This document shows positions 8,817 to 22,968 of a stretch of 64,000 nt of DNA, piece by piece. Under the pieces are notes generated by a model. The model searched no databases. It was not told where the DNA came from and worked only from the letters and a program-made list of their open reading frames with translations. Every line of letters begins with the position of its first letter. Positions within the stretch are counted from its first letter, which is position 1. Position numbers and translations under genes: made by a program. This stretch comes from Geovibrio thiophilus (GTDB taxonomy: Bacteria > Chrysiogenota > Deferribacteres > Deferribacterales > Geovibrionaceae). The stretch is taken from NCBI RefSeq assembly GCF_004087915.1, contig NZ_CP035108.1, forward strand, positions 2,170,001-2,234,000, given 5' to 3'.

Positions 8817-10289
8817 CTAAAAAAAGTCGATTGATGAGTGATCATCCTCATGCGCCATGACATCGATGATCGAAGCGGAAGCCCGTCCTGCCTCGAAATC
8901 CGGATCGGAATACATATGCTGAGGAATTTTGCGTTTAAAGGTCTCGAAGCTGTTCTGAAAAATCCTGTCAATCTCGGCAAAGGAGCGGTTTATCTTCATA
9001 AGCCCTCCGCTCAGATGCTCCATGAATTCATCTCCGGAGAATTTGCCTCTGAAATGGGCAAGCTCTCCGTCAAGTTCCCCTGATTTTTTTAGGAGGTTGT
9101 CTATATGACTGTCCGAGTGAAGCTCACGCAGACGGTTAATGTTTATATTCGCGTCTCTCAGGACGATGCTGAAACCGTTTTTGAGTTCCCCCCAGAGCTT
9201 CAGGCTGACGGACAGCTTATCCACCAGACTCATAAGAATCCGCTCCGTCTCGCTCATGGAGACCACAACGCTCTCAAGACTTGTGTCCCCTATTCTGGCG
9301 ACCTCTACAGCGGTTATTACCACAAGGTTGCGGAAGGATTTGCCGAACTTCCTCAGAGTAAGGATTCCGTTCTCGGCGTTTTTAAGCTCCTTTTCGGTGA
9401 GCTTAATCATGCTTATCAGCCCGCCGACAATGGTTTCTATGGAATCACTGTATTCCTTTGCCTTTTCAAACTCCATCTTAACAAGGTTTGCACGACCTAC
9501 TATGTTTTGTATATCGGTGTTGATGTGGTAGAGAAACTCTTTTATAACCTCTTTTATTTCTTCAAATATTTCAGTGGTTTTAGTCTGCACTTCGTCCATT
9601 TTGACTATGGCGAGCTCATGCACACCGTAGCTTTTGCCGAGACAGAAAGCGTCATCATCCGTGCATTCGATCAGGGCGCTGCTTATTGCGTCAATCTCCT
9701 GAATGATTATGTCGTGAAACTGGCTGCACTCTATAAGCCTTGAAATATCCGAGCTTACCTCAAGAGGCGCTTCTTTGTCTTCTGCTCCGCCTATCATAAG
9801 CTCAACCTTGGAGCTGTTTTCGCTGAAAGTGGCGTTTATTTCTTTGAAATCATCATAAATACTTGTAAATGTTTGTGATATATTTTCGAGAAGATTTTTC
9901 GCAACAGTGGCGTTTTTCTTAATCTCTTTGCTGATATGGGCTATGGTTGCGCCTTTCGCACCGAGAGAGATGGTGGTGCATATGGTGTTATATGAGAGGA
10001 GCTCAAGATCATCGGTTATCTTAAGAAAGGTTTCCGAAGCTTCGGTTATTTCATCCTTCATGCTTTTTATATCAATACTGACGATTTTTTTATTAAGATC
10101 TTCTGATATTTTTGCGATCAGGACTGCGGTATCGTCCGTAAAGCTTTTTGCTGATTTCTCAAGATACGAATTAATCTCAAGCATACTCTCAAAACTGCTT
10201 CCTCGCAGTTCCATAAGCTTGTTGATAATATCAACAATTTCTACAAAGTATTCTGTAAGCTCATTCTTAAGCTCATGAAGATGAATCAT
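8817..10289 (-). CDS. Degenerate double-tip MCP-like protein with CheZ-like DxxxQ motif
   Basis: A 490-residue, almost fully helical soluble protein ending the chemosensory operon. Two stretches align without gaps to the chemoreceptor hairpin tip: residues about 98-123 (YNTICTTISLGAKG) and about 322-347 (ITAVEVARIGDTS, which keeps the E-x-A-R-x-G core). Between them lies QFHDIIIQEI (190-199), with Asp193 and Gln197 in the DxxxQ spacing of the CheZ phosphatase site (FQDLTGQVI). It has no transmembrane segment and no sensor domain. It overlaps the preceding response regulator gene by 4 nt (ATGA). Likely an array component or CheY-P phosphatase; the resemblance is seen in sequence, the activity is inferred. 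Confidence 0.6.
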   Translation of the reverse strand: MIHLHELKNELTEYFVEIVDIINKLMELRGSSFESMLEINSYLEKSAKSFTDDTAVLIAKISEDLNKKIVSIDIKSMKDEITEASETFLKITDDLELLSYNTICTTISLGAKGATIAHISKEIKKNATVAKNLLENISQTFTSIYDDFKEINATFSENSSKVELMIGGAEDKEAPLEVSSDISRLIECSQFHDIIIQEIDAISSALIECTDDDAFCLGKSYGVHELAIVKMDEVQTKTTEIFEEIKEVIKEFLYHINTDIQNIVGRANLVKMEFEKAKEYSDSIETIVGGLISMIKLTEKELKNAENGILTLRKFGKSFRNLVVITAVEVARIGDTSLESVVVSMSETERILMSLVDKLSVSLKLWGELKNGFSIVLRDANININRLRELHSDSHIDNLLKKSGELDGELAHFRGKFSGDEFMEHLSGGLMKINRSFAEIDRIFQNSFETFKRKIPQHMYSDPDFEAGRASASIIDVMAHEDDHSSIDFF

Positions 10290-10648
10290 CTGGAATATTT
10301 TCCCGCAACTTCCTTCAGCATATTTTCAGTTACGGGTTTAAGAATAACACTGTCAAACCCGCTCGCCCTGAGCTGGGATGCTTCCGAGACATCCGCAGTA
10401 AAGGCGATGCACTTTGCCGATTTCCATTTGTATTTGTTTTTAACTCTTTCCAATACATCCAGACCGGTCTCAGATGGTCCCAGCCTGTAGTCTATGAACA
10501 ATATATCAGGAATTATAGCATTTTGCAGAGTAAAATCGTCCAGTTTTTTCACTGAATCGAAGATATATACTTCATGCTCAAGCTTTGTAAGTATAAAATT
10601 GCACATTTTCAGGTGCAGACCATTGTCGTCAATAATAAAAATCCTCAT
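10286..10648 (-). CDS. Single-domain response regulator
   Basis: A 120-residue receiver domain with no output domain. It shows the acidic pair IIDDN (residues 6-8), the phospho-acceptor Asp53 in FIDYRLG, Thr in AFTAD and Lys in ILKPV. It is more divergent from CheY than the other two receivers in the operon; the loop after Asp53 reads YRLGPSETG rather than the usual xNMPxMDG. It lies 15 nt after cheA and overlaps the MCP-like gene by 4 nt, suggesting that it and the DxxxQ protein work as a pair. The start has a GGAGAG site. Confidence 0.88.
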   Translation of the reverse strand: MRIFIIDDNGLHLKMCNFILTKLEHEVYIFDSVKKLDDFTLQNAIIPDILFIDYRLGPSETGLDVLERVKNKYKWKSAKCIAFTADVSEASQLRASGFDSVILKPVTENMLKEVAGKYSR

Positions 10649-10663: not shown

Positions 10664-13588
10664 CTATATGAGTTTGTTCGTGTTGAGAACCAAAACCGCC
10701 TGACCGTCTCCCAGAATAGTAATTCCGCCGACATAAGAAAGGTGTGCGAAGTATTCAGGAACAGGTTTAATGGCTATATCGATGCGGTTTATAAGTTCGT
10801 CCACCATAAGACCGACCTTACCCATGTCGGTATTGGTGATTACTATGCAGACCTCTTCGGGCAGCTCTCCGGGGTCTTCTTCCAGAAGCCCCTTCATGCT
10901 GTAAAGAGGAAGCACCATCCCCCTGTAATGAACGGCAAGACCGTAATGCAGATCCTTGACTTTGTCCTTGGGCAGCTTGATTGTCTCCGCCACATTCTCA
11001 ATGGGTATGGCATAAATTACAGAACCGAGCTTAACAAGCAGAGCCGTTGAAACACCTATGGTAACAGGTATCTTCAGCACAAATCTGGAGCCTTCCCCCA
11101 TTGTTGACTGTATATCTACAAAACCGCCGAGATTTACAACGCAGGTTTTCACCACATCCATTCCGACACCGCGTCCGGATATGTCAGTAACTTTTTCCGC
11201 AGTTGAAAAGCCGGGTTCAAGGATGAGCTGCATTATCTCTTTATCGCTGAGTTCCGAATCGGAACCGATCAGCCTGTTTGAGATCGCTTTTTCCCTGACT
11301 CTGGCGGTGTTTATTCCTTTTCCGTCGTCAATTACCTCTATATAGACAAAACTTCCTTCCTGATAGGCTTTAAGGATTATGGTTCCCAAGGGTGTTTTGC
11401 CCGCCTTCTGCCTCTCCTCAGGAGTTTCGATTCCGTGATCGCAGGAGTTGCGGAGGAGGTGAACCAGAGGATCGCTCAGGAGATCCGCAACTTTTTTGTC
11501 TATCTCAGTGTCCTCGCCGATTATGCGCAGGTCTATCTGTTTGTTCTGTTTTCTTGATATATCCCTTACCACTCTGGGGAATTTCTGAAAGACCTGCCGG
11601 ATCGGGATCATCCTGAGGGAAAGTATATCCCTTTGCAGATCCTGAGAAATCCTCGCAATCAGGTTGGCGTTGTCCTTAAGATCCTTAATCAGAGAAGAAG
11701 GCAGGGCATATTCACGGGCTATCTTCTGAATCAGATATTCATTGGCGTTCTTTGCCACCACAAGCTCACCTATAGTATTGGTGAATTTGTCTATCTTTTC
11801 CTGATCCACCTTCATGGTCTGGCTTCCGACGTCCTGCTGAGGAAGACCGGCGGACTGCTGTTTGGCGGACGTGGGAGCACCTTCCCTCGCAGTGTCGGCA
11901 ACCGCCTTCATCACTTCCTGCTTTTTCAGAGCTTTATCCAGCTCTTCCTTGCCGAGTTTACCCTCCTCAACGAGAATATCGCCGAGTTTTTTCTGTTTGC
12001 TCAGGGCTTCCTGAATATCATCCTCTGTGATTTTTCCGTCACGCACCAGAAGCTCGCCCAGCATCCTCGGGGGTGATTTGAGTTCATCAAGATATTTGAG
12101 AATCCTTTCCATATGGGTATCAAAAGGCTTGGATTCCTTTATACATTTTTCAAGGTCTCCGGCTATGCTGTGAAGTTCATCAAACCCCACGAACTTAGCT
12201 GCGTTTTTCAACCCGCCGACACCCCTGAGCACCTGCCGGACATCAAGCTCCCCGTCTTCGGAGGCTATGCTGATTATCTCTATAAACTGTTCAAGTTGTT
12301 TGATGAATATCTTCACTTCCTCATTTACAAGAGTCATTGAGCTTTTCATAGTCTCAAGGCTTGAGGTGAGGGCTTTAAGAGTGCGGTATGAGGAAGGCAC
12401 AGGAGTGATCCCCTCCTTGGTGAGACCGGAGAGCATTTCCCTTATATCCGTGACAACAGCAAGAATAATGTCCGCAGCTTTCTTGTCGAACATGATCCTG
12501 CCGCTTCTTATGTCATCCAGCACACCTTCAACAAGGTGGGCGAACTCCTCCAGAAAACGGAAACCCACATAGCCGCAGTCCCCTTTTATTGTGTGGAAAA
12601 CACGGAACAGGTCGTCAATACCGGGACCTGAGCCTTTTCCGTCCTTTTCCAGCTTCAGGGTGACGGACTCTATGGACTCAAAATAATCCTCTATGCTCGC
12701 GGCAAGCTCGCCTAAGAGTTCGGCGTCTATGCCTTCCATAGTTATATATTCCGCCGGAACGGACTGAGCTGCGGGAGCCTGCTTTTCCGCTTCATCCCGC
12801 ACACGGACAGGTTCATCAAGGGAAGCCTCCGCCACGGTGACCACCCCGGGTTCAAAGCCGAAGTCCGCCAGATCCGCAGCGTCAAGCTCGCTTATTATAT
12901 AAATTTCCGGCTGGAGGTATACATCAAAAGGATTGAGCCTGTCCAGCGGCGGAACGGAAGATGTGTCAGCCTTGCAGAAATATTCGGCGGAGCTCATCTT
13001 AAGGTTTGACATAACAGGAAGCGGATCGTAGCCGTTTTCCAGCATCTCCGATGTGAAATGGAAATCAGCCCTGTAAGCCCTGCCCCCTTTTCTGCCTGAG
13101 GAGCGGAGCTTTTCCCTTATATCCGCGCAGGATACATAAGCGGGAGGAGCCTCGGCTCCGGAGGAGGATGCGGTCTTGTTTTCCGGTGACGCTTCGCTTC
13201 CCCCGAACTGCATATAGCTTTCAAGTTCTCTTATTATTCCGTCCTCATCCACGGAGTATTCCCTGCCTTCCTTCGCAGCCGTGACCATTTCGTAAATGCC
13301 GTCAGCGGCTTTCAGAATGCTGTCCACCAGCTCGCCGGATACCTCAAGCTCTTTGTTGCGGAGCTTGTCCAGCAGGGTCTCAAGATGGTGTGTAAATGCT
13401 GTTATATGATCAAAGCCGAACCCCGCGGCGCTGCCTTTTATAGTATGAATAGAGCGGAAGACGGAGTTGATAAGCTCCGGATCGTCATCCGCCTCAATTT
13501 TCAAAACATCCTCATTCGCCTGCTCAAGAAGCTCCGCTGCCTCATCAAGGAACGACCTGCGGAACTTTTCCATATCAATTTCGACCAT
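10664..13588 (-). CDS. cheA: CheA histidine kinase with two HPt domains
   Basis: A 974-residue chemotaxis kinase, longer than the usual 650-700. Order: HPt1 (about 8-105, His48 in SIHTIKGSAAG); a linker domain (about 165-250); HPt2 (about 285-390, His332 in VFHTIKGDCG); a third HPt-like stretch (about 420-490, VGGLKNAAKFVGF) without the histidine; two short tandem repeats (LGELLVRDGKITEDD and LGDILVEEGKLGKEE, about 510-557); dimerisation domain (about 592-660); HATPase (N box HLLRNSCDHGIE about 710, G boxes DDGKGIN and GRGVGMD); and a C-terminal CheW domain (about 845-970). It would phosphorylate the three receivers and CheB of this operon. Confidence 0.96.
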   Translation of the reverse strand: MVEIDMEKFRRSFLDEAAELLEQANEDVLKIEADDDPELINSVFRSIHTIKGSAAGFGFDHITAFTHHLETLLDKLRNKELEVSGELVDSILKAADGIYEMVTAAKEGREYSVDEDGIIRELESYMQFGGSEASPENKTASSSGAEAPPAYVSCADIREKLRSSGRKGGRAYRADFHFTSEMLENGYDPLPVMSNLKMSSAEYFCKADTSSVPPLDRLNPFDVYLQPEIYIISELDAADLADFGFEPGVVTVAEASLDEPVRVRDEAEKQAPAAQSVPAEYITMEGIDAELLGELAASIEDYFESIESVTLKLEKDGKGSGPGIDDLFRVFHTIKGDCGYVGFRFLEEFAHLVEGVLDDIRSGRIMFDKKAADIILAVVTDIREMLSGLTKEGITPVPSSYRTLKALTSSLETMKSSMTLVNEEVKIFIKQLEQFIEIISIASEDGELDVRQVLRGVGGLKNAAKFVGFDELHSIAGDLEKCIKESKPFDTHMERILKYLDELKSPPRMLGELLVRDGKITEDDIQEALSKQKKLGDILVEEGKLGKEELDKALKKQEVMKAVADTAREGAPTSAKQQSAGLPQQDVGSQTMKVDQEKIDKFTNTIGELVVAKNANEYLIQKIAREYALPSSLIKDLKDNANLIARISQDLQRDILSLRMIPIRQVFQKFPRVVRDISRKQNKQIDLRIIGEDTEIDKKVADLLSDPLVHLLRNSCDHGIETPEERQKAGKTPLGTIILKAYQEGSFVYIEVIDDGKGINTARVREKAISNRLIGSDSELSDKEIMQLILEPGFSTAEKVTDISGRGVGMDVVKTCVVNLGGFVDIQSTMGEGSRFVLKIPVTIGVSTALLVKLGSVIYAIPIENVAETIKLPKDKVKDLHYGLAVHYRGMVLPLYSMKGLLEEDPGELPEEVCIVITNTDMGKVGLMVDELINRIDIAIKPVPEYFAHLSYVGGITILGDGQAVLVLNTNKLI

Positions 13589-13599
13589 ACCCCACCCCG

Positions 13600-13965
13600 T
13601 CAGGAAATACCGAGAAGCATTTTTATGTTTATTATCAGTTCCTCAGGTTTCACAGGCTTGGTTATGTACAGGTTCGCGCCGGACATATAGCCTTTTCTGC
13701 GGTTTTCCGCCTCTTCCTGAGTGGTAATTATAATGACAGGGGTTTCTTTCCCTGTTTTTCTGAGTTCCTTTATGAATGTTATTCCGTCCATTCTAGGCAT
13801 GTTAAGATCGCAGAGGATCATGGAAAATGAGCTTTTCACCGCTTTTTCAAGGGCGTCCATGCCGTCTATCGCCTGTTCGGTGTCAAAACCGGCGGACTTG
13901 AGAATATTGGCGTGGAAGTGCCTCACCATGTCCGAATCATCAACTATCAGAACCTTAAACGCCAT
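13600..13965 (-). CDS. cheY: CheY-like response regulator
   Basis: A 121-residue receiver domain. Acidic pair VDDSD, phospho-acceptor Asp53 in LCDLNMPRMDG, switch Thr in IITT and Lys in ITKPVKPEE are all present, so it should be phosphorylated by CheA. The ATG at 13965 (MAFKVLIVDD) with a GTGAGG site is chosen over upstream starts that would extend into cheR. It lies between cheR (4-nt gap) and cheA (11-nt gap). The output is unknown because no flagellar or pilus genes are nearby. Confidence 0.92.
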   Translation of the reverse strand: MAFKVLIVDDSDMVRHFHANILKSAGFDTEQAIDGMDALEKAVKSSFSMILCDLNMPRMDGITFIKELRKTGKETPVIIITTQEEAENRRKGYMSGANLYITKPVKPEELIINIKMLLGIS

Positions 13966-13969
13966 AGCC

Positions 13970-14803
13970 TCACCCCTTGTAATAAACGACATTTCTGCCG
14001 AACCGCTTGATGGAAAAAGCTGTTGTGATACGTCCCACAGACTCGCTATGACCAAGGAAGATATAACCGCCTCTGTTCAGGGCGATGTAATAGTGATCCA
14101 CAACCTGCTTTCTGGAAATTTCATCAAAGTATATCAGCACGTTGCGGCAGAAAATGAAGTCAAATCCCCTCTGCCGCCTCATCTGCATTTTGTCATTCAG
14201 ATTTATATGCTCGAAGCGCACCATGTCCCGCACCTCTTGCACCGGAACGTGGCAGCCGTCGACAAAGCTGAAGTATTTGGCATAGTATTCCTCAGGAACA
14301 TCCTTCACGCTTCTGTCATCGTAGCGGGCGCTTTTTGCCTTTTCCAGCGCCATGAGGTCAATGTCGGAGGCGACTATTTCCACGTTCCATTTCTCGTGCC
14401 TGTCCAGAAGCTCACGCACTATAATAGCAAGCGTGTACGGCTCTTCCCCCGTGGAGCACCCGGCAGACCAGATACGGATAGTGTTGTCCTTCTCCCTCTC
14501 TTTTTTCTCGGCTATTTCCTGAAGGCAGAACTCCGCGAAAACTTCCAGAGTGGCGAATTCACGGAAGAAATAGGTCTCATTCACGGTGAGGAGGTTCATC
14601 AGTTCCTGAAACTCGTCCCCCTCCCTGTCCTTGAACTTGAGAAAGCGTATGTAGTCCCTCGCTGATTCTATACCGAGAGTGGAAAGCCGTTTTTCAAGCC
14701 TTTTATTGATGAAGTAGCGTTTCTTGTCCTCAAAGTTAATGCCGGACTTTTTATAAATAAACGCGGTAAGATCCTTGTAGTCCTCAAGGGTAACAACAAA
14801 CAT
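13970..14803 (-). CDS. cheR: Chemoreceptor glutamate methyltransferase CheR
   Basis: A 277-residue SAM-dependent methyltransferase that methylates receptor glutamates for adaptation. The N-terminal helical domain ends in NETYFFRE, the SAM-binding motif is AGCSTGEEPYTLA, and later motifs include FDFIFCRNVLIYFD and LGHSES. The length matches simple CheR (about 275-290) with no TPR extension. Its ATG directly follows the stop of the HEAT gene with no gap, and GGAGCAG serves as the binding site. Confidence 0.95.
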   Translation of the reverse strand: MFVVTLEDYKDLTAFIYKKSGINFEDKKRYFINKRLEKRLSTLGIESARDYIRFLKFKDREGDEFQELMNLLTVNETYFFREFATLEVFAEFCLQEIAEKKEREKDNTIRIWSAGCSTGEEPYTLAIIVRELLDRHEKWNVEIVASDIDLMALEKAKSARYDDRSVKDVPEEYYAKYFSFVDGCHVPVQEVRDMVRFEHINLNDKMQMRRQRGFDFIFCRNVLIYFDEISRKQVVDHYYIALNRGGYIFLGHSESVGRITTAFSIKRFGRNVVYYKG

Positions 14804-15868
14804 TTACTGCTCCGCTATCAGCGCCTTGAGGCTGAGAAGCTCTTCTTTGAGATCCCCTTCAGCAACCTTAAGCCTGCGTTCGATTATTTTAAGCGCTCTT
14901 TCTCTGTTGATTCCCGCAAGCTTGTCCAAAGCGGCGAGCATCACATTCATGTCATTCTCTCCGGCGAACTCCTCGAAGATCTCTTCCTTGCTCTTTATAC
15001 ACAGCCTGTAGGCTATGCCCATAAAAGTTATGCGGTTGTCGGAATCAAGGTTCTGATCCTTCACTCCGTTGATAACGTATTTTTCGTACTCATAAGGGAG
15101 AACATCTATATTATCCCTGATCATAATCTTCAGGATAGAGCCTGATATTTCGTTGAAAAACAGTGTATTTTTATTATTAAGAAACCTGAGCAGAAAAGGC
15201 AGATGATCCTTTGTGCCGCATTCCGCCACCATGCGGAAAACGGACGGCTTGTAGAAGCTGTCCATAGTTACTCCGCCCAGTATGTCAAGCACAGTATCCA
15301 CTACCTCACGTCTTGCAAGGTGAGTGAATGTCTCAATACATGATATTCTAAGCATAGGCTCGTTTGACGCTTCAAAAATTTCCAGTATATCGCTTAAGGA
15401 TTCCTCGTCATTTATTTTCCCCAGATACTCAACAGCGGTTATCTGCACATTCGGCGCCTTATCCCTGAGAGCGGCACGCAGAGCCGGAATACAGTATTTT
15501 GAGCCTGTTGCCACAAGGCTGTCCAGAATGAGCTTGCGGACCTCTTTATCTGAGTGATCCATCACGGAGGTGAGAAAAGGAACAGCGTCTTCTCCCTTGG
15601 AGCCGAAAATCTCAATGGCACAGTTTCTTATGAACGCGTCGGACGATTCAAAAAATTTTGCCACAGAAGAAAACTGCGGCGAGACATCCAGAAGCTTCAA
15701 TCCCTCTACCATAAGCTCCTTCACCATGCGGCTCTCCTCTTTCTTAAGAGCTGCGATAAGATCGGGGATAAGCTCATCCGCATGCAGGGTTATAATATCC
15801 TCCACGGCATACAGCCTTTCGGTTTCATCATCGTTTAGGAGGGAGGCTCTGATACTTTGAATATCCAT
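14804..15868 (-). CDS. HEAT-repeat protein of the chemosensory operon
   Basis: A 354-residue all-helical protein with about 6-8 HEAT-like repeats across its length. Repeats of the form aIEIFGSKGEDAVPFLTSV, DSLVATGSKYCIPALRAAL and EYLGKINDEESLSDILEIF recur about every 30-35 residues. Such proteins are scaffolds for protein partners; here the position immediately before cheR (no gap) suggests it organises the methylation or kinase machinery. It has no signal peptide and is likely cytoplasmic. GGAGAAA precedes the ATG. The specific partner is unknown. Confidence 0.8.
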   Translation of the reverse strand: MDIQSIRASLLNDDETERLYAVEDIITLHADELIPDLIAALKKEESRMVKELMVEGLKLLDVSPQFSSVAKFFESSDAFIRNCAIEIFGSKGEDAVPFLTSVMDHSDKEVRKLILDSLVATGSKYCIPALRAALRDKAPNVQITAVEYLGKINDEESLSDILEIFEASNEPMLRISCIETFTHLARREVVDTVLDILGGVTMDSFYKPSVFRMVAECGTKDHLPFLLRFLNNKNTLFFNEISGSILKIMIRDNIDVLPYEYEKYVINGVKDQNLDSDNRITFMGIAYRLCIKSKEEIFEEFAGENDMNVMLAALDKLAGINRERALKIIERRLKVAEGDLKEELLSLKALIAEQ

Positions 15869-15897: not shown

Positions 15898-16260
15898 TCA
15901 GGGCACTATTTTTTTAACAACAGCAAGCAGATCCGCCGGTTTGAAAGGCTTCACTATCCATGCCTTGGCACCGGCCCTTCTCCCTTCTTCCTTTTTTTCC
16001 GCCTGAGACTCGGTAGTGAGCATTATGATCGGCGTAAACTTGTGCTTCGCCATGTTTTTAACTTCTTTAATGAGCGTTATGCCGTCCATGTTGGGCATAT
16101 TAAGATCGGAGATGATCAGGTTAAACCTGTCATTCTCAAGCTTGGTAATCGCGTCCTTGCCGTCACGGGCGTCCACAACTTCATAGCCCGCTGATTTCAG
16201 CGTGGCGGCGACAAGCTGCCTCATGGTTATGGCATCATCGACTATCAGTATTCTCTTCAC
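15898..16260 (-). CDS. cheY: CheY-like response regulator (GTG start)
   Basis: A 120-residue receiver with VDDA, phospho-acceptor Asp52 in ISDLNMPNMDG, Thr in MLTTES and Lys in IVKPFKPADL: the closest to canonical CheY in the operon. The GTG at 16260 is chosen because AGGGGGA precedes it by 5 nt and the protein then starts at the usual MKRILIVDD. A longer frame from 16317 would run into the STAS gene. Gaps to its neighbours are 13 nt and 29 nt. Confidence 0.92.
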   Translation of the reverse strand: MKRILIVDDAITMRQLVAATLKSAGYEVVDARDGKDAITKLENDRFNLIISDLNMPNMDGITLIKEVKNMAKHKFTPIIMLTTESQAEKKEEGRRAGAKAWIVKPFKPADLLAVVKKIVP

Positions 16261-16273
16261 GCTGTTCCCCCTG

Positions 16274-16555
16274 TCAGATACCCAGTCCGTAAAGCCCCGT
16301 GACCCTTGAGGCTTCACTGCTCTTTCCTGTTATTTCATATTTTATTCCCTTCTCCTTTAATGTGTTCAGGAGAGAGATCAGTATATTCACAAAAGTCGTG
16401 TCCATGGTGCGCACAGCGGAAAGATCTATCTCCGCCGCGGTTTTTGAGGTCAGGTCAGTATTTTGAAGCGCTGCCAGTGCTTCTTCCGCCATAAAATTTT
16501 CGCACTCCCCGGGGAAAATGATTCTAAGCTTTGATTTAAGAGGTTTTATATCCAT
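16274..16555 (-). CDS. STAS-domain protein
   Basis: A 93-residue single STAS domain of the anti-anti-sigma/MlaB type. The central strand-turn-helix IDLSAVRTMDTTFVNIL corresponds to the conserved segment that carries the phosphorylated Ser in SpoIIAA; here the site has Thr residues instead. In chemosensory operons such small STAS proteins are of uncertain role and may link the pathway to a non-motility output. It starts 1 nt after the cheB stop. Confidence 0.82.
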   Translation of the reverse strand: MDIKPLKSKLRIIFPGECENFMAEEALAALQNTDLTSKTAAEIDLSAVRTMDTTFVNILISLLNTLKEKGIKYEITGKSSEASRVTGLYGLGI

Positions 16556-16556
16556 A

Positions 16557-17618
16557 TCACCATCCCTTCTTAACGACTCTGTTCAGTTCCCAAGCTATCC
16601 TGCCGCTGGGCAGCACAACATCCGCCCCGCCCCTGTCTATTGCTTCCTTGGGCATGCCGAAAACTATGCAGCTTTCCTCGGATTCGGCTATGGTGTAGCC
16701 TCCGTCCTGCCGTATTTTCACCATGCTGTTCGCGCCGTCATCGCCCATTCCAGTCATCAGCACGCCGACAGTCTTCGCCCCGAAGCAGTTTCTCACCGAA
16801 TCCATCATCACATCCACGCTGGGGATAAAATGATGCTCCGGCTTTTTAGTAAGCCTTATAATAATCTTTCCGCCGGGCTTTCTGTATAATGTCATGTGGA
16901 AGCCGCCCTTGCCGAGATAGCACACCCCGGGGCGGATCTCCTCTCCGGCTTCAGCCTCTTTAACATGTATTTTGCAGTATTCGTTAAGCCTTCTGGCGTA
17001 TGTCGCCGTGAATGTGGGCGGCATATGCTGAACCATGAACAACGCAGCGGGGAAGTTTTTCTCAAGCTCGGGAAGAACATCAAAAATTGTCTTCGGTCCG
17101 CCGGTGGAAATGCCTATGCACACAGCCGGATAATCGTCCAGCTCAAGAGGCGGTTCCTCGTCCTGTTCAACAGTGAGCTTCACCTTCTGAGGCTTAAGGG
17201 CTCTCCGCCTGAGTTTTTTTACTTCCGTGCCCGATGCCGCCTTCACTTTTTGCAGCAGATCGTCTCTTACTTCGTCTATGTTGACGGAGACTGTTCCGCC
17301 GGGCTTTGCCACATAGTCAAACGCGCCGAGCTCCATTGCCTCAAAGGTTGTGACAGCTCCCTCCTGAGTAAGCGAACTCAGCATGATTACGGGGCAGATC
17401 CTTTCCTCAAGCACTATGCAGAGAGCAGTCATTCCGTCCATGACGGGCATGTTTATATCCATCGTAATGACATCCGGTTTAAGGGCGCGCGCCTTCGTAA
17501 CGCCGTCCTGTCCGTCTCTGGCTGTTCCTACAACTTCAATATCCGGATCGGACTCCAGCATCTCCCTGACTTTTTTCCGCATCAGGGCAGAGTCATCCAC
17601 AACAAGAACTTTTATCAT
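16557..17618 (-). CDS. cheB: Chemoreceptor methylesterase CheB
   Basis: A 353-residue protein with an N-terminal receiver (Asp54 in ITMDINMPVMDG) and a C-terminal methylesterase/deamidase. The catalytic Ser lies in GISTGGP, the His in QHMPP and the Asp in GMGDDGA. It removes methyl groups from receptor glutamates when phosphorylated by CheA. The linker (about 125-165) is lysine-rich. The ribosome binding site is weak. It follows the triple CheW gene after 44 nt, the widest gap in the operon. Confidence 0.96.
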   Translation of the reverse strand: MIKVLVVDDSALMRKKVREMLESDPDIEVVGTARDGQDGVTKARALKPDVITMDINMPVMDGMTALCIVLEERICPVIMLSSLTQEGAVTTFEAMELGAFDYVAKPGGTVSVNIDEVRDDLLQKVKAASGTEVKKLRRRALKPQKVKLTVEQDEEPPLELDDYPAVCIGISTGGPKTIFDVLPELEKNFPAALFMVQHMPPTFTATYARRLNEYCKIHVKEAEAGEEIRPGVCYLGKGGFHMTLYRKPGGKIIIRLTKKPEHHFIPSVDVMMDSVRNCFGAKTVGVLMTGMGDDGANSMVKIRQDGGYTIAESEESCIVFGMPKEAIDRGGADVVLPSGRIAWELNRVVKKGW

Positions 17619-17662: not shown

Positions 17663-19189
17663 TTATGAACCTATTTTCTCAAGCTTCTTCTTTTCCGCCT
17701 TACTGAACAGCTCATCGACATTAAGCAGAAGGATCATCCTCTGCTTGCCGGTAAGGTTTACGACACCGTCAAGGAACTGGCTGTCCACCCCTGCGCTGAG
17801 CACAGCGGGAACTGAATCTATGCAGTCTGAGGGAACACGCAGAACCTCGTCCACGAAATCCACCACAAACCCCACACGTATGCTCGCAAGGTTCACGATT
17901 ATCACCCTTGTAAACTCATCCGCTGTCCTTGCGGTAAGCTCAAAGCGTTTTCTCAGATCTATGAGAGGTATTACCTCGCCTCTGAGATTTATTATCCCCT
18001 CCACGAAGGCGGGGGTTTTGGGTACTCTGGTCACGTTTGAATATCTGTTTATTTCCTGAACCTTCTCAATGAAGATTCCGTATTCCTCATCCTCAATTGT
18101 AAAAGTGACTATCTGCTTTTCTTCCGCCGCAGAGGCTGATGCGTCCGTCATAGAGAAATTTCCTCCTTCCTGCCCGGCAAGCTTTTTGAGAGCTTCGATT
18201 TCCTTTGCCTGAAGCAGGTTAGCGCTTTCCAGAATCATTACGAGTCTTTCACCCTGTTCCGCCTTGATAATAGCGGAAATCTCCGAGCCGTTTTCGGAAA
18301 AAACCTTAGGAGGCTCCTCAATGGAGGATTCGGGCACGCTGAGCACCTCGCTCACTTTATCCGCAATGAACCCGACAAGCGTGTTCTCGATCTCGATTAT
18401 AACCACCCTTGAATCTTCCGTTTCAGGCTTGTCCTTTTTGCCGAACTTTCTGTGGAGCGACATAAGGGGAATGACCTTTTCCCTGAGGGAGAAAATCCCC
18501 ATCACGTAGCTTTCCAGCCCGGGAACGGAAACACATTCAGGCAGGCGGATTATCTCGTTTATTTTATGAATCTCTATGGCGTATCCGCTTCCGTCTATCT
18601 CAAAGCTGATGAAGCGCCTGTAGTCGGACACTTCCTTATCGGCAACATCCGCTTTCACCGCAAATCCCCGCTGGGAGGATGACTCATCAAACTTCCGCTG
18701 GATTTCAGCTATATTCACAAGCTCTTTGGAATCCAGAACCTGAACAAGCCTTATGCCGTCCTTGGTGCGCATTTTAAGAACGCCTGAGATAAACTTCCTG
18801 TCCGCCCCGCTGCTCAGCATCTCCGGCAGCTCTTCGTATGAACCGGACTCGGTGGATTTCACCTCACTGACCGACTCAACCACGAAGCCTATCTCAAGTC
18901 CGCTTTTTTCGGTTACAATTACTCTGGTGTCCTCACCGTTAACGCAGGGGTTCTGATACCCCAGCCTGAGAGAAAGATCCAGAACAGGGAGCACACTTCC
19001 CCGCAGATTACTGATGCCCAGAACAAATACGGGCATTTTGGGCACACGGGTAACCTTGGGCAAACGTATAATCTGCCTTACTTCATCTATGGGGATTCCG
19101 AAATATTCCGAACCGACGGTAAACGAAACATACTTTTTATCAGAATGCTCCGCCCCGTTCATTGCCGCTGCGGGGCTCATTTCAGCCAT
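17663..19189 (-). CDS. Triple CheW-domain adaptor
   Basis: A 508-residue protein made of three full CheW domains in tandem: about residues 20-160 (VSFTVGSEYFGIPIDEV), 190-330 (ISFEIDGSGYAIEIHKI) and 360-500 (VTFTIEDEEYGIFIEKV). Each keeps the VPxxPxFVxGIxNLRG-like strand. Normal CheW has one domain and links CheA to receptor tips. A triple adaptor could bridge several receptors or kinases at once and so set the lattice spacing. There is no single-domain CheW in the operon. AGGAGCG precedes the start. Confidence 0.94.
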   Translation of the reverse strand: MAEMSPAAAMNGAEHSDKKYVSFTVGSEYFGIPIDEVRQIIRLPKVTRVPKMPVFVLGISNLRGSVLPVLDLSLRLGYQNPCVNGEDTRVIVTEKSGLEIGFVVESVSEVKSTESGSYEELPEMLSSGADRKFISGVLKMRTKDGIRLVQVLDSKELVNIAEIQRKFDESSSQRGFAVKADVADKEVSDYRRFISFEIDGSGYAIEIHKINEIIRLPECVSVPGLESYVMGIFSLREKVIPLMSLHRKFGKKDKPETEDSRVVIIEIENTLVGFIADKVSEVLSVPESSIEEPPKVFSENGSEISAIIKAEQGERLVMILESANLLQAKEIEALKKLAGQEGGNFSMTDASASAAEEKQIVTFTIEDEEYGIFIEKVQEINRYSNVTRVPKTPAFVEGIINLRGEVIPLIDLRKRFELTARTADEFTRVIIVNLASIRVGFVVDFVDEVLRVPSDCIDSVPAVLSAGVDSQFLDGVVNLTGKQRMILLLNVDELFSKAEKKKLEKIGS

Positions 19190-19208: not shown

Positions 19209-21449
19209 TCAGTACGCCTGCATCTCGTCTGCGAGAGAAGCAACCTCTTCCGCTGCTGCGGCTATTTCGTTGAGTCCCTTAACCTGCTCGTCTGCCGCGA
19301 GTTTGGCTTCATCGGTAAGCTTTCTGAGTTTTTCAGCAACCCCGAGGCTTTCATCGCAGGCAGTGTTGACTCTTGCGACCATCTGACCGCCCTCTTCAAA
19401 AAACGCCTGAGAGACCCTGCGGGTTTCGGCTGCGGCGGCTCTGAGCCTCACAGTCTCCACAAGGTTCACCACAGCCACTTCGGACTTCTCTATCTGAACA
19501 CGGATGAGCTGACTTATCTCCTGAAGCTCGCTCTGGAAGTTGTCTGTCTGCTCGTACATTTCCTCAAGAATGTCCTTCATTTTGTCCGCGTTGTCGGCGG
19601 ATTCGCTGGCGAGTGAGCGGATGTCGGACGCCACAACTGAGAAGCCTCTTCCGAATTCGCCTGAGCGTGCCGCTTCTATACTGCCGTTAACGGCGAGCAT
19701 ATTTGTCTGTATGGCTACGTTGTTAATTGTATCTACAATTTTTCGTATATTACTGAATGATTTATAAAGCTGTTTAACCTCAGTGCTGATCTCTCTGATG
19801 CTCTCGACACTTTTCACAAAACCGAGGGCAACAAGCTCTATACCGTGGTAAAAGCCTCTGTATTCCTTTTTAAAGCCGTCAACCCCGGGAAGAACCTTGT
19901 GCTTGAAAACCTCTCTCGCTTCACCAAGCTTTCCTTCCTCCATAAGACGGACTATCTCTCCAGCGCCAAGGTGCACATGGTTGTGCGGTTCGCGTATGGA
20001 GTGGTAGCATTTTTCCTCATCGTGGTCATGGGGTTTATAGGTCATATACCATGCGCCGAATGCGCATTTTGTGGGGTCAAGCTGTCCTTCAAAGAGGGTA
20101 TTGTTGTTGAGCGCTTCCTGAAGCTGGTTGATGAAGACAATATGGTCTAAGGCTTTAATTTCCTCAAGTTCCACAAGAATTTTCTCTCCCTCAACCATCA
20201 TAACTGCCCAGCAGCCGTTTCCTTCATCAAGGAGCTTCTGCATGGTGTTGAATTCGTGCTTTATTCCGTCAAGCTCATCACCCATTTCCTGAGTGCCCGT
20301 ATCTATCTGGTCTATGGCTTTGAGTATCTCGTCCGCTGAGGCGTTGAGTTCCTCAATTGTGGCTGAAAGTTCTTCCGCCGCAGCCGCCACCTCTTCGGAG
20401 GATTTTGACATATCGGTGGAGTTTTTCAGATCCTCAGACATTTCGGCTATCTCATTTGCCGCCGCGGTGAGCTCGGCGAAAGCCTTCGCCTGCTCCTCGG
20501 TAAACTTGCTTACCTCTTCGGAGGCTGTTGCGTTCTGCTCTGTGGCTGCCGCGAGACGGTTTACTATATCAAGGGATTTGCCGGATTCTATGCAGATGCT
20601 CTCGGAATCCTTCTTGATTTTGCCCACCTGCTCACGCATTATTTTTGCCGCGTCATTTATGGAAATGCACTTATTGCTTATGAAATCAGCCTTGAAAAGA
20701 TTGGTTTTGGAACCCTTTGTGAAGGTTGTAACCTTCTCCACCACACGGCTGACCTGCTCAAGGGAAGAATCGATAACAAATTTTATGTCCTTCGCCGCGC
20801 CTTCGGAGACTTCGGCGAGGGTACGCACCTCATCCGCCACGACGGCGAATCCTTTTCCGTGCTCACCGGCTCTTGCCGCTTCGATTGCGGCGTTCAGCGC
20901 CAGAAGGTTGGTCTGGTCTGCGATTTTCTTAACAACCTGAACTATCTGCTCTATTGAGCCTGCCTTTTCCTTAAGCTGCTCCACAAGGGAGGTGGATTCC
21001 ACAACCTTGTTGGTTGTGTTGTCCACGCTTTCCCGCAGCTCTTTAACAGCACCCACAGTATTTTCCACACGGTCGTTCATCCTGCTGATCGCCGTGTCGT
21101 ACTTGATTGAGTTGTCAAAGACCTTGCGGCTCACCTGTTCAAGCTGGATTGTTTCGTTCTTGATATTGTCGGAGGTTCTGCTGACCTGAGCGGAAGCCAC
21201 GGTGACCTGAACCATTGCGTCCCCGAGCTGTCCGGCTGCGCTGCTTGACTGCTCAATAGCGGACGCCATCTCTTCCGAAGCGGCGGCGAGCCTTTCCGCA
21301 TTTGCCTGCTGCTTGGCAAGGGTTCTGGTGCGCGCTTTTTCGGCGGCGTTTCGTTTCGCTTCATCTCTCTTTTTCTGAAGCTCTTCTCCCTCTTTTTTCA
21401 CAAGCCCGGTTCTGCCTTCAAGGCTTGACGGCTTAGCCAGTTTTTTCAT
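19209..21449 (-). CDS. Soluble chemoreceptor with two signalling tips and a CZB domain
   Basis: A 746-residue methyl-accepting protein without transmembrane segments. The first signalling bundle (about 50-380) has its tip at 182-212 ([17 protein letters not shown]). A zinc-binding CZB domain follows (about 430-535), with His436, Cys462 in KCAFGAWY, and a His-rich PHNHVH at 488-493. A second bundle (about 545-746) has its own tip at 584-614 ([16 protein letters not shown]). Two tips in one chain is the layout of Vibrio cholerae DosM, which holds together two-layered cytoplasmic arrays. CZB domains sense zinc or hypochlorous acid in other receptors. AGGAAAG precedes the ATG. Confidence 0.92.
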
Positions 21450-21468: not shown

Positions 21469-22968
21469 TCAGAATATTTCCAGTGTATTCAAAATCTCGT
21501 TTTCAATTTTAAGCCTGAGTGTGAAGTCAGTATCTTTGTCAGTGCGGATGTCCTTCGCTTTAACGCTGATGATTCCGCTTTCGTCTATCATGAATGAAAT
21601 ATCAATTAACGGCTCGCCGCCGTCCGCCCCGTCCAGTTCAACGGAAAACCTGCCCAGACTGACGAAATGCCAGGGGTTCTCTGCGACGGAATCCCCTGTG
21701 TTCAGAGAAGATTTTGCCATATCCTGCAAGACATGAACAGTAATTTTTTTCCTGTCCATTTCAGGAGTGGTGAACACCATGCTGAACTCCACAGGGTAAA
21801 TCTCATTTTTCCTTAATATCACTTCAAAATTTCCGTTGTCGTCCTCCACACCCAAGTTGTGGGAGGTGACATCATAAAAAACCTTGTCGCTGATGAGCCC
21901 TGAGAGCATAGCGGCGTTAACGGCGGCTCCGCTGACCACAGCCTCTTCAGGGTTCATGTCTTTTCTGACCCTGTCTCCGAAAATGTCGGAGATAAGCCTG
22001 CGCACGCTGTGTATGCGGGACGCTCCGCCCACGGGAAGAACCTTCGCTATGTCTTCAATATTCAGCCCGCCTGACTCAAGCAGACTGTCGATTATGTTTT
22101 TTATTCCCTTCGTGAGGGGCGCTGTAATTTTGTCAAATGTTTCTCTGGTAATTGTTTCCTTGAAATGCAGAGCCCCTTTTTTGGTGACAGTGATATAAGG
22201 CACAACCAGATTAACCTCATTCAGCGAGGAAAGCTCCATCTTCGCCTTTTCCGCCTGAAACAGAAGCTGCTGATAGGCTATGGGGTCGCTTTTAAGGTCT
22301 ATGCCGTGCTGACGGCGGAAGTTTTCTATGAAATATTCCGCCACCGCCACGTCAAAATCCACTCCGCCTATCTCGGTGGAGCCGCCTGTGAACAGCACTT
22401 TGCAGCAGTCCGCCTTCATCTCTATCAGGCTTATGTCCAGCGTGCCGCCGCCGAGGTCGAACACCATGCACACATCGCCGGTGTTTTTACCTATGTTATT
22501 GTAGAAGAGAGCCGCCGATGTGGGCTCGTTCAGGAGACGCAGAACCCTGAATCCCGCATTCTCCGCGGCAGACCGGACAGCCTCACGCTGGTAATGGTCA
22601 AAATAAGCGGGGACTGTGACTACCGCGTCCGCCTCTTTCTCACCGGAATAATCCTCAAAACTTTTTTTAAGCTTGCGGAAAATCAGCGAAGCAAGCTCCT
22701 CCGCCCTGTATTCCCTGCCGTACAGCGGAAACAGAATGTCTGTTCCCATATATCTCTTGATATTGGCAATCGTGTGTTCTGATTCCAGAAGCTGCATGCT
22801 CTTTGCGTTATCGCCTATCACAGCCTCATTTCCGTTCTTAAAGTATATCACGGACGGCAGGTATCTCTTGCCGCTTTCGGAGCTTATTATGTCTATGGTT
22901 CCGCCGTCTCTGTAAACGGCTATCATGGAATTGCTGGTTCCGAAATCTATTCCCACGCAGCGCTTCAT
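21469..22968 (-). CDS. Short Hsp70/DnaK-like chaperone of the chemosensory operon
   Basis: A 499-residue Hsp70 (DnaK is about 640). The nucleotide-binding domain (about 1-365) has GIDFGTSNS, the second phosphate motif [11 protein letters not shown] and the adenosine motif VGGASRI, so ATP binding should be intact. The linker that is normally VLLLDVTPLSLG reads [12 protein letters not shown] beta-type substrate domain follows (about 385-499, with [17 protein letters not shown]), then the protein stops, lacking the helical lid. It overlaps parA by 4 nt. No DnaJ or GrpE is adjacent, so it is not the housekeeping DnaK; it may remodel the receptor array or assist ParA. Confidence 0.88.

Follow-up and report, generated by a model that had tools for sequence, protein, structure and literature searches.

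A receptor-like protein at the end of an F9 chemosensory operon in the Deferribacterales: a candidate array-docked CheY-P phosphatase

What is the role of a protein that is built like a chemoreceptor and carries, between its two tips, a helix resembling the active site of CheZ? The question is raised by P0001, the product of the final gene of a chemosensory operon in Geovibrio thiophilus, a member of the Deferribacterales with a 3.0 Mb genome. The operon lies in the window, the whole stretch of 64,000 nucleotides of DNA that was analysed. P0001 joins two receptor-type tips, a CheZ-like DxxxQ helix, and a C-terminal tail in one receptor-like chain, and its features are as follows.

8817..10289, minus strand: P0001, an intact open reading frame with its translation (490 aa); 12 further orthologues
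9924..10001, minus strand: tip 1 (residues 97-122), placed by the family scan above shuffles
9675..9722, minus strand: CheZ-like helix, residues 190-205, QFHDIIIQEIDAISSA, from conservation, models, and helical wheel
9711-9713, minus strand: codon of D193
9699-9701, minus strand: codon of Q197
9252..9329, minus strand: tip 2 (residues 321-346), placed by the family scan, with a turn in both models
8820..8840, minus strand: C-terminal tail (residues 484-490; family pattern [ST][IV][DE]FF), retained by 12 of the 13 orthologues

Ahead of P0001, and listed in the order of transcription, the operon encodes the following genes.

21469..22968, minus strand: DnaK-like protein at the operon head (sequence; conserved in the operon-bearing contexts compared)
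19209..21449, minus strand: DosM-like double-tip receptor, an F9 marker (Pfam MCPsignal 2e-61, CZB 9e-11; alignment)
17663..19189, minus strand: CheW3, a triple CheW and an F9 marker (Pfam CheW in three stretches, 4.6e-102)
16557..17618, minus strand: CheB (sequence; synteny)
16274..16555, minus strand: STAS-domain protein (Pfam)
15898..16257, minus strand: CheY-like receiver c (Pfam, 2.1e-29)
14804..15868, minus strand: HEAT-repeat-like protein (its position matches annotated HEAT genes in other F9 loci)
13970..14803, minus strand: CheR (sequence; syntenic homologues)
13600..13965, minus strand: CheY-like receiver b (Pfam, 1.9e-30)
10664..13588, minus strand: CheA, with three Hpt domain matches (Pfam)
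10286..10648, minus strand: REC120, a single receiver domain (Pfam Response_reg, 1.2e-10)

The operon belongs to the F9 class: both published markers of that class, the double-tip receptor DosM and the triple CheW CheW3, are present (PMC9321776). In V. cholerae, the F9 system forms double-layered cytoplasmic arrays, and F9 function is poorly understood (PMC7534058, PMC9321776). In the DosM-like receptor (19209-21449), the tips are separated by a chemoreceptor zinc-binding (CZB) domain, which is absent from the corresponding protein of genome G022; in a published survey, 98% of DosM proteins had no sensory domain (PMC9321776). F9 loci in Deferribacterales, and those of two Alphaproteobacteria, also come with a gene for a ParA-like ATPase, at these positions.

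L061:10722-11507, L062:1951-2739, and L078:114-893: ParA-like ATPase adjoining the DnaK-like gene
L118:21451-22302 and L121:19520-20281: ParA-like ATPase at further F9 loci

This association suggests that the cytoplasmic array is actively positioned.

The receptor-like part of P0001 rests on its tips. A sequence-only reading of the window had described two ungapped tip matches (98-123 and 322-347). In a position-specific scan of the family alignment against the 26-residue canonical receptor-tip core, the two best-scoring places were residues 97 and 321; both matches are in register and beat shuffles. Column shuffles that preserved the heptads (200 per core length) never equaled the tip 2 score when 26-residue cores were used and did so once with a 20-residue core, and their second-best places were nowhere near the observed score; with the core lengthened to 43 or 53 residues, the scan is decisive for tip 1 but not for tip 2. 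Invariant Glu329 and Arg332 occupy the canonical Glu and Arg positions in tip 2; tip 1 has neither. Both AlphaFold models of P0001 (n = 2; pLDDT 82 and 81, pTM 0.55) break the helix at 334-335, the aligned turn of tip 2, and the first of them alone breaks it at 110, in tip 1. By the 26-residue cores and the modeled tip 2 turn, P0001 has two receptor tips, as does a DosM-type MCP. The earlier description of the protein as decayed is wrong, because the tips are its best-conserved segments and dN/dS, for which the pairs L007-L008 and L011-L014 were used, is about 0.025 between two close orthologues, a sign of strong purifying selection.

Between the tips, QFHDIIIQ (190-197) lies on a separate short helix (191/192-207) in both AlphaFold models, and the stretch QFHDIIIQEI with Asp193 and Gln197, to which the sequence-only reading had drawn attention, is indeed encoded there. 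The bare DxxxQ pattern was dropped as evidence: 0.48 copies are expected per shuffled sequence, which is not significant, and P0001 has a second, unconserved copy (DRIFQ, D441). The fuller pattern Q[FY][QH]D[IV]xxQ appeared in 0 of 20,000 shuffles. As a genome-wide marker, FxDIxxQ is only partly useful, since PAS kinases (FHDITEQ) and others match it. The proposal of a CheZ-like site depended on conservation, which holds, and on exposure, which is predicted. Twelve of the 13 orthologues, with identities as low as 33%, retain D193 and Q197. On a helical wheel, the angle from the hydrophobic face is about 157-177 degrees for D193 and about 117-137 degrees for Q197; the genome's own CheZ, analysed alike, gives about 170 degrees for Asp and 150 for Gln. 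By helical wheel, the pair is thus predicted to sit on the polar, solvent-exposed face at CheZ-like angles; P0001 has a conserved DxxxQ, and its place on an exposed helix face, the mark of CheZ, is likewise a prediction.

How are these parts inherited? Orthologues of P0001 occur in 13 of the 51 genomes of the phylum, and those with an intact motif co-occur with CheW3 in an identical set of 12 of the 51. A tblastn search of plasmids returned no relative of P0001, and a single scan of genome contigs had a genus member as its sole match. In the orthologue of genome G002 (locus L017, on G002:C10), D is replaced by E and Q by S, and a ghost tail, GQLELF, lies beyond a TAA stop; no REC120, DosM-like receptor, or CheW3 was found in this 99% complete genome. 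Measured as identity to locus L012, tip 1 is kept at 52/62 in G002 and 55/62 in the F9-bearing L016, and tip 2 at 41/51 in both, whereas the motif region is at 12/26 in G002 versus 22/26 in L016; the N-terminal 70 residues have diverged too (27/71 versus 51/71). Because G002 keeps the tips and has lost motif, tail, receiver, and operon, the tips seem to have a use that persists after the F9 operon is gone, and the DxxxQ site and tail, to judge from this comparison, go with the receiver and the operon. A single event in a single lineage, the loss is insufficient alone to make the case. Directly after the G002 gene lies another receiver gene, and a downstream receiver is likewise found in L016 and in G001.

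The receiver in question is REC120. Its end overlaps the start codon of P0001 by 4 nt, and it shows the residues typical of receivers, namely an acidic pair, the phosphorylatable Asp, a Thr, and a Lys. REC120 adjoins P0001 in all 12 genomes that keep DxxxQ; in G022, which belongs to another family, the two are still paired, on the strand opposite the operon. This translational coupling and persistent pairing would make REC120 the likeliest substrate of P0001. Three positions before the conserved Lys, at the switch position, REC120 has no aromatic residue; receiver b has Tyr and receiver c has Trp.

The tail follows the same distribution, being present in exactly the 12 orthologues that keep DxxxQ, and its sequence differs from the tails of CheZ. 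It was also considered as a CheR tether, for which the motif is -x-[HFYW]-x(2)-[HFYW] (PMC7184735), and rejected: the family tail has no aromatic residue at position 2. Tail, REC120 coupling, and F9 class had all been missed by the sequence-only reading.

Other F9 loci show what may stand in the place of P0001. Among nine plasmid-borne F9 loci sampled, 4 (Methylosinus, Eleftheria, Sphaerotilus, and Methylobacterium) encode a single-tip protein that is labeled a methyl-accepting chemotaxis protein, has a helix of the form [FY]QD[IV]x[RK]Q, and ends in IELF. The remaining 5 have CheX/CheC beside a receiver gene, verified by Pfam, and CheX/CheC and a DxxxQ receptor occur together in 0 of the 9. 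In the Deferribacterales, P0001 apparently occupies the slot held elsewhere by CheX/CheC or by a DxxxQ receptor.

In CheZ, Gln147 orients the attacking water, and Asp143 engages the active-site metal and lysine of the receiver; the phosphoryl group on which the two residues act belongs to the receiver, and they themselves stay unphosphorylated. We consider it reasonably probable that P0001 is a cytoplasmic protein of the F9 array and a candidate CheZ-like, array-docked CheY-P phosphatase with REC120 as its likeliest substrate. We favor this reading because Asp and Gln are conserved, lie on the polar face, are lost only with the receiver and operon, and stand in a CheX/CheC-type slot. The strict co-occurrence with F9, and the linkage of DxxxQ and tail across tip-bearing proteins described below, also count in its favor. 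The receptor-type tips would dock P0001 among the components of the array, and the short amphipathic helix between them would present Asp193 and Gln197 to a receiver. As in CheZ, Gln197 would place the attacking water and Asp193 would contact the receiver's metal and Lys. The flexible C-terminal peptide, SS[IV][DE]FF, may tether the receiver by analogy with the CheZ tail, and the translationally coupled REC120 would be the likeliest receiver. The earlier suggestion that a receptor-derived helical protein has become the CheY-P phosphatase is in this way favored indirectly, by Asp/Gln conservation, joint loss, and shared slot.

Rather unlikely, in our judgment, is a structural role, in which P0001 would space or clamp receptor assemblies within the array and its conserved DxxxQ helix would be a noncatalytic packing or docking surface. 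Such a role would suit the strong conservation of the tips and their retention in G002 without an F9 system. However, the motif tracks the receiver and the operon and the tips do not, the true phosphatases CheX and CheC take a comparable slot in other F9 loci, and the helical wheel turns D and Q toward solvent.

Still less probable is a docking platform or reader that binds phosphorylated REC120 through DxxxQ and tail and relays the signal without hydrolysis. The tight pairing with REC120 would fit, as would the receiver's missing aromatic switch residue, because of which its output may be unusual. Because a Vibrio CheD also ends in VELF, the tail may serve docking in general instead of tethering CheY, and its partner may not be the receiver; this counts against the favored reading as well. 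Against a reader, the residues that P0001 retains are the catalytic pair of CheZ at CheZ spacing, and the comparable slot in other F9 loci is filled by CheX/CheC.

Profile comparisons count against the favored reading, and structure searches told little. There was no Pfam match in P0001 to CheZ (PF04344) or to CheX/CheC (PF04509/PF13690) at E <= 1 and no NCBIfam match to CheZ at E <= 0.1; the Pfam listing for 12 family members, with 25 families, does not include CheZ. MCPsignal (PF00015) scored 10.8 bits against a cut-off of 34.6. With no CheZ or MCP profile above threshold, it would be a mistake to place P0001 under CheZ or among the canonical receptors. Aligned by hhalign with DosM, it shows no significant profile similarity (probability 0.5%), and a profile comparison with PDB sequences gave nothing relevant. 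In structure searches, chemoreceptors ranked below generic helical bundles, toxins, and axoneme proteins; the receptor chains 8c5v and 2ch7 align to residues 211-463 with Z of about 10, which is helical-bundle background, and CheZ was not among the matches listed, which is uninformative either way. A divergent signal-input receptor, or a methylation-sensitive sensor of the F9 array, would accord with two tip-like hairpins in a chemosensory operon; it is very unlikely, as P0001 has no sensor domain, an MCPsignal score below cut-off, and a tip 1 that lacks the canonical Glu and Arg, and as motif and tail would be left unexplained. The idea of a phosphate sink for the array, the other half of the sequence-only proposal, is rejected as extremely improbable: to act as a sink, P0001 would have to contain a receiver or histidine domain that can be phosphorylated, Pfam shows neither, and the Asp and Gln of CheZ are not phosphorylated.

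That proposal had also noted that no CheZ, CheC, or CheX is visible in an operon with three receivers and CheB. This is true of the operon and false of the cell: elsewhere, the genome encodes a CheZ (212 aa, L059:2760-3398), a CheW-CheZ fusion, and three CheX matches, and any of these could act on the receiver of P0001. The fusion, at L057:1043-2887, joins CheW to a C-terminal CheZ-like domain (HALEFQDITEQ ... LLAEFGLN) and has a counterpart in L066 (G001), where an open frame of 374 aa matches it and encodes the CheZ-like part.

The combination of a DxxxQ helix and a hydrophobic tail extends beyond P0001. In strict form, the motif Q[FY][QH]D[IV]xxQ and the tail [IV][DE][LF]F occur in the same 17 of 2263 ORFs, neither ever alone; 12 of them are P0001-family members and 5 are single-tip proteins. 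With broader patterns, a post-tip [FYW]xDxxxQ and a C-terminal [IV]x[LF]F, 8 of 44 non-redundant tip proteins have both, 36 have neither, and 0 have only one (Fisher 5.6e-9, a value to be read with the facts that relatives are non-independent and that the patterns were widened after the F7 cases). The 8 include McpA-like receptors of F7 operons. Three of these receptors stand in F7-like operons: LQFQDRVSQ...DVTFF in Aeromonas (L132), LQFQDRVSQ...DITFF in Pseudomonas sp. HR96 (L133), and LQFTDIIVQ...EVELF in Vibrio (L134). Another is likely in the genome under study.

L131:7494-8735 (G000:C1, about 683.5-684.7 kb): likely McpA-like receptor, with an N-terminal hydrophobic hairpin, a canonical tip, QYQDINRQ, and a C-terminal NVELF

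It is one of the five single-tip proteins and heads a che operon of its own, which continues with STAS, CheY, CheA, receptor, CheW, receptor, CheR, CheD, and CheB in an F7-like layout. The VELF-ending CheD mentioned above belongs to the F7-like operon of Vibrio sp. THAF191d (L134:18691-19335); it ends in DDVELF, and the DxxxQ receptor lies two genes downstream.

McpA-like receptors sit by F7 clusters, are dispensable for the F7 array, and have no assigned role; their C-terminus is strikingly conserved, with Val at position 2, is unlike the CheR tether, and has an unclear role, and the receptors do not interact with CheR (PMC7184735). F7 clusters of the early stages 1-2 have cheY and no cheZ (PMC7184735). 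The published Val at position 2 agrees with an [IV]x[LF]F tail. A shared DxxxQ helix and tail would give one answer both to the role of McpA-like receptors and to the missing cheZ of early F7 systems. We regard it as a nearly even call, falling slightly short, that the McpA-like receptors of F7, the single-tip proteins of F9, and the P0001 family form a class of candidate array-docked CheY-P phosphatases, in which the tip would serve docking, the DxxxQ helix catalysis, and the [IV]x[LF]F tail the receiver. The literature, as far as our incomplete search reached, holds no proposal of McpA-like receptors as phosphatases. If true, such a class would be the off-switch of systems that have CheY and lack their own CheZ, CheC, or CheX; counts of chemoreceptors would include enzymes, and signal termination could be integral to the array. 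Comparison with relatives suggests that a whole group of "receptors" without an assigned role may be off-switches. As for P0001 itself, its family has the Q[FY]xDxxxQ after a tip and the [IV]x[LF]F tail of the group; two further features of the group, a PF00015 score above cut-off and a spacing of 115-121 residues from tip Asn to Asp (as in all 8), are absent, the spacing being 92 in P0001 (N101 to D193). Aligned by hhalign, the P0001 family and the single-tip proteins share one in-register stretch, tip 1 plus the DxxxQ helix (E 0.005, probability 7%), and homology of P0001 to the group is at most suggestive.

Among known systems, CheZ is the model for the proposed chemistry of P0001. In both, Asp-xxx-Gln is placed toward the polar side of an amphipathic helix, F stands at -2 and I/L at +1, the C-terminus forms a hydrophobic tail, and a CheY-type receiver is found alongside; unlike CheZ, P0001 is much longer, bears receptor-type tips, differs in tail sequence, and matches no profile. 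CheX and CheC hold the same receiver-plus-phosphatase slot in other F9 loci, with an ExxN-type active site and a fold unrelated to that of P0001. DosM (V. cholerae VC1403; 19209-21449 in the window) shares with P0001 the operon and two signaling tips per chain, but its tips are canonical and it has neither DxxxQ nor tail. The McpA-like receptors (P. aeruginosa McpA/CttP type; L131-L134) resemble P0001 in their order of parts, with a Q[FY]xDxxxQ-type helix following a tip and an [IV]x[LF]F tail at the C-terminus, and in lying near a CheY-type gene. They have one canonical tip where P0001 has two divergent ones, all four examined carry hydrophobic N-terminal stretches like a membrane hairpin, unlike P0001, and the distance from tip to Asp is 115 in these four receptors, against the shorter span in P0001.
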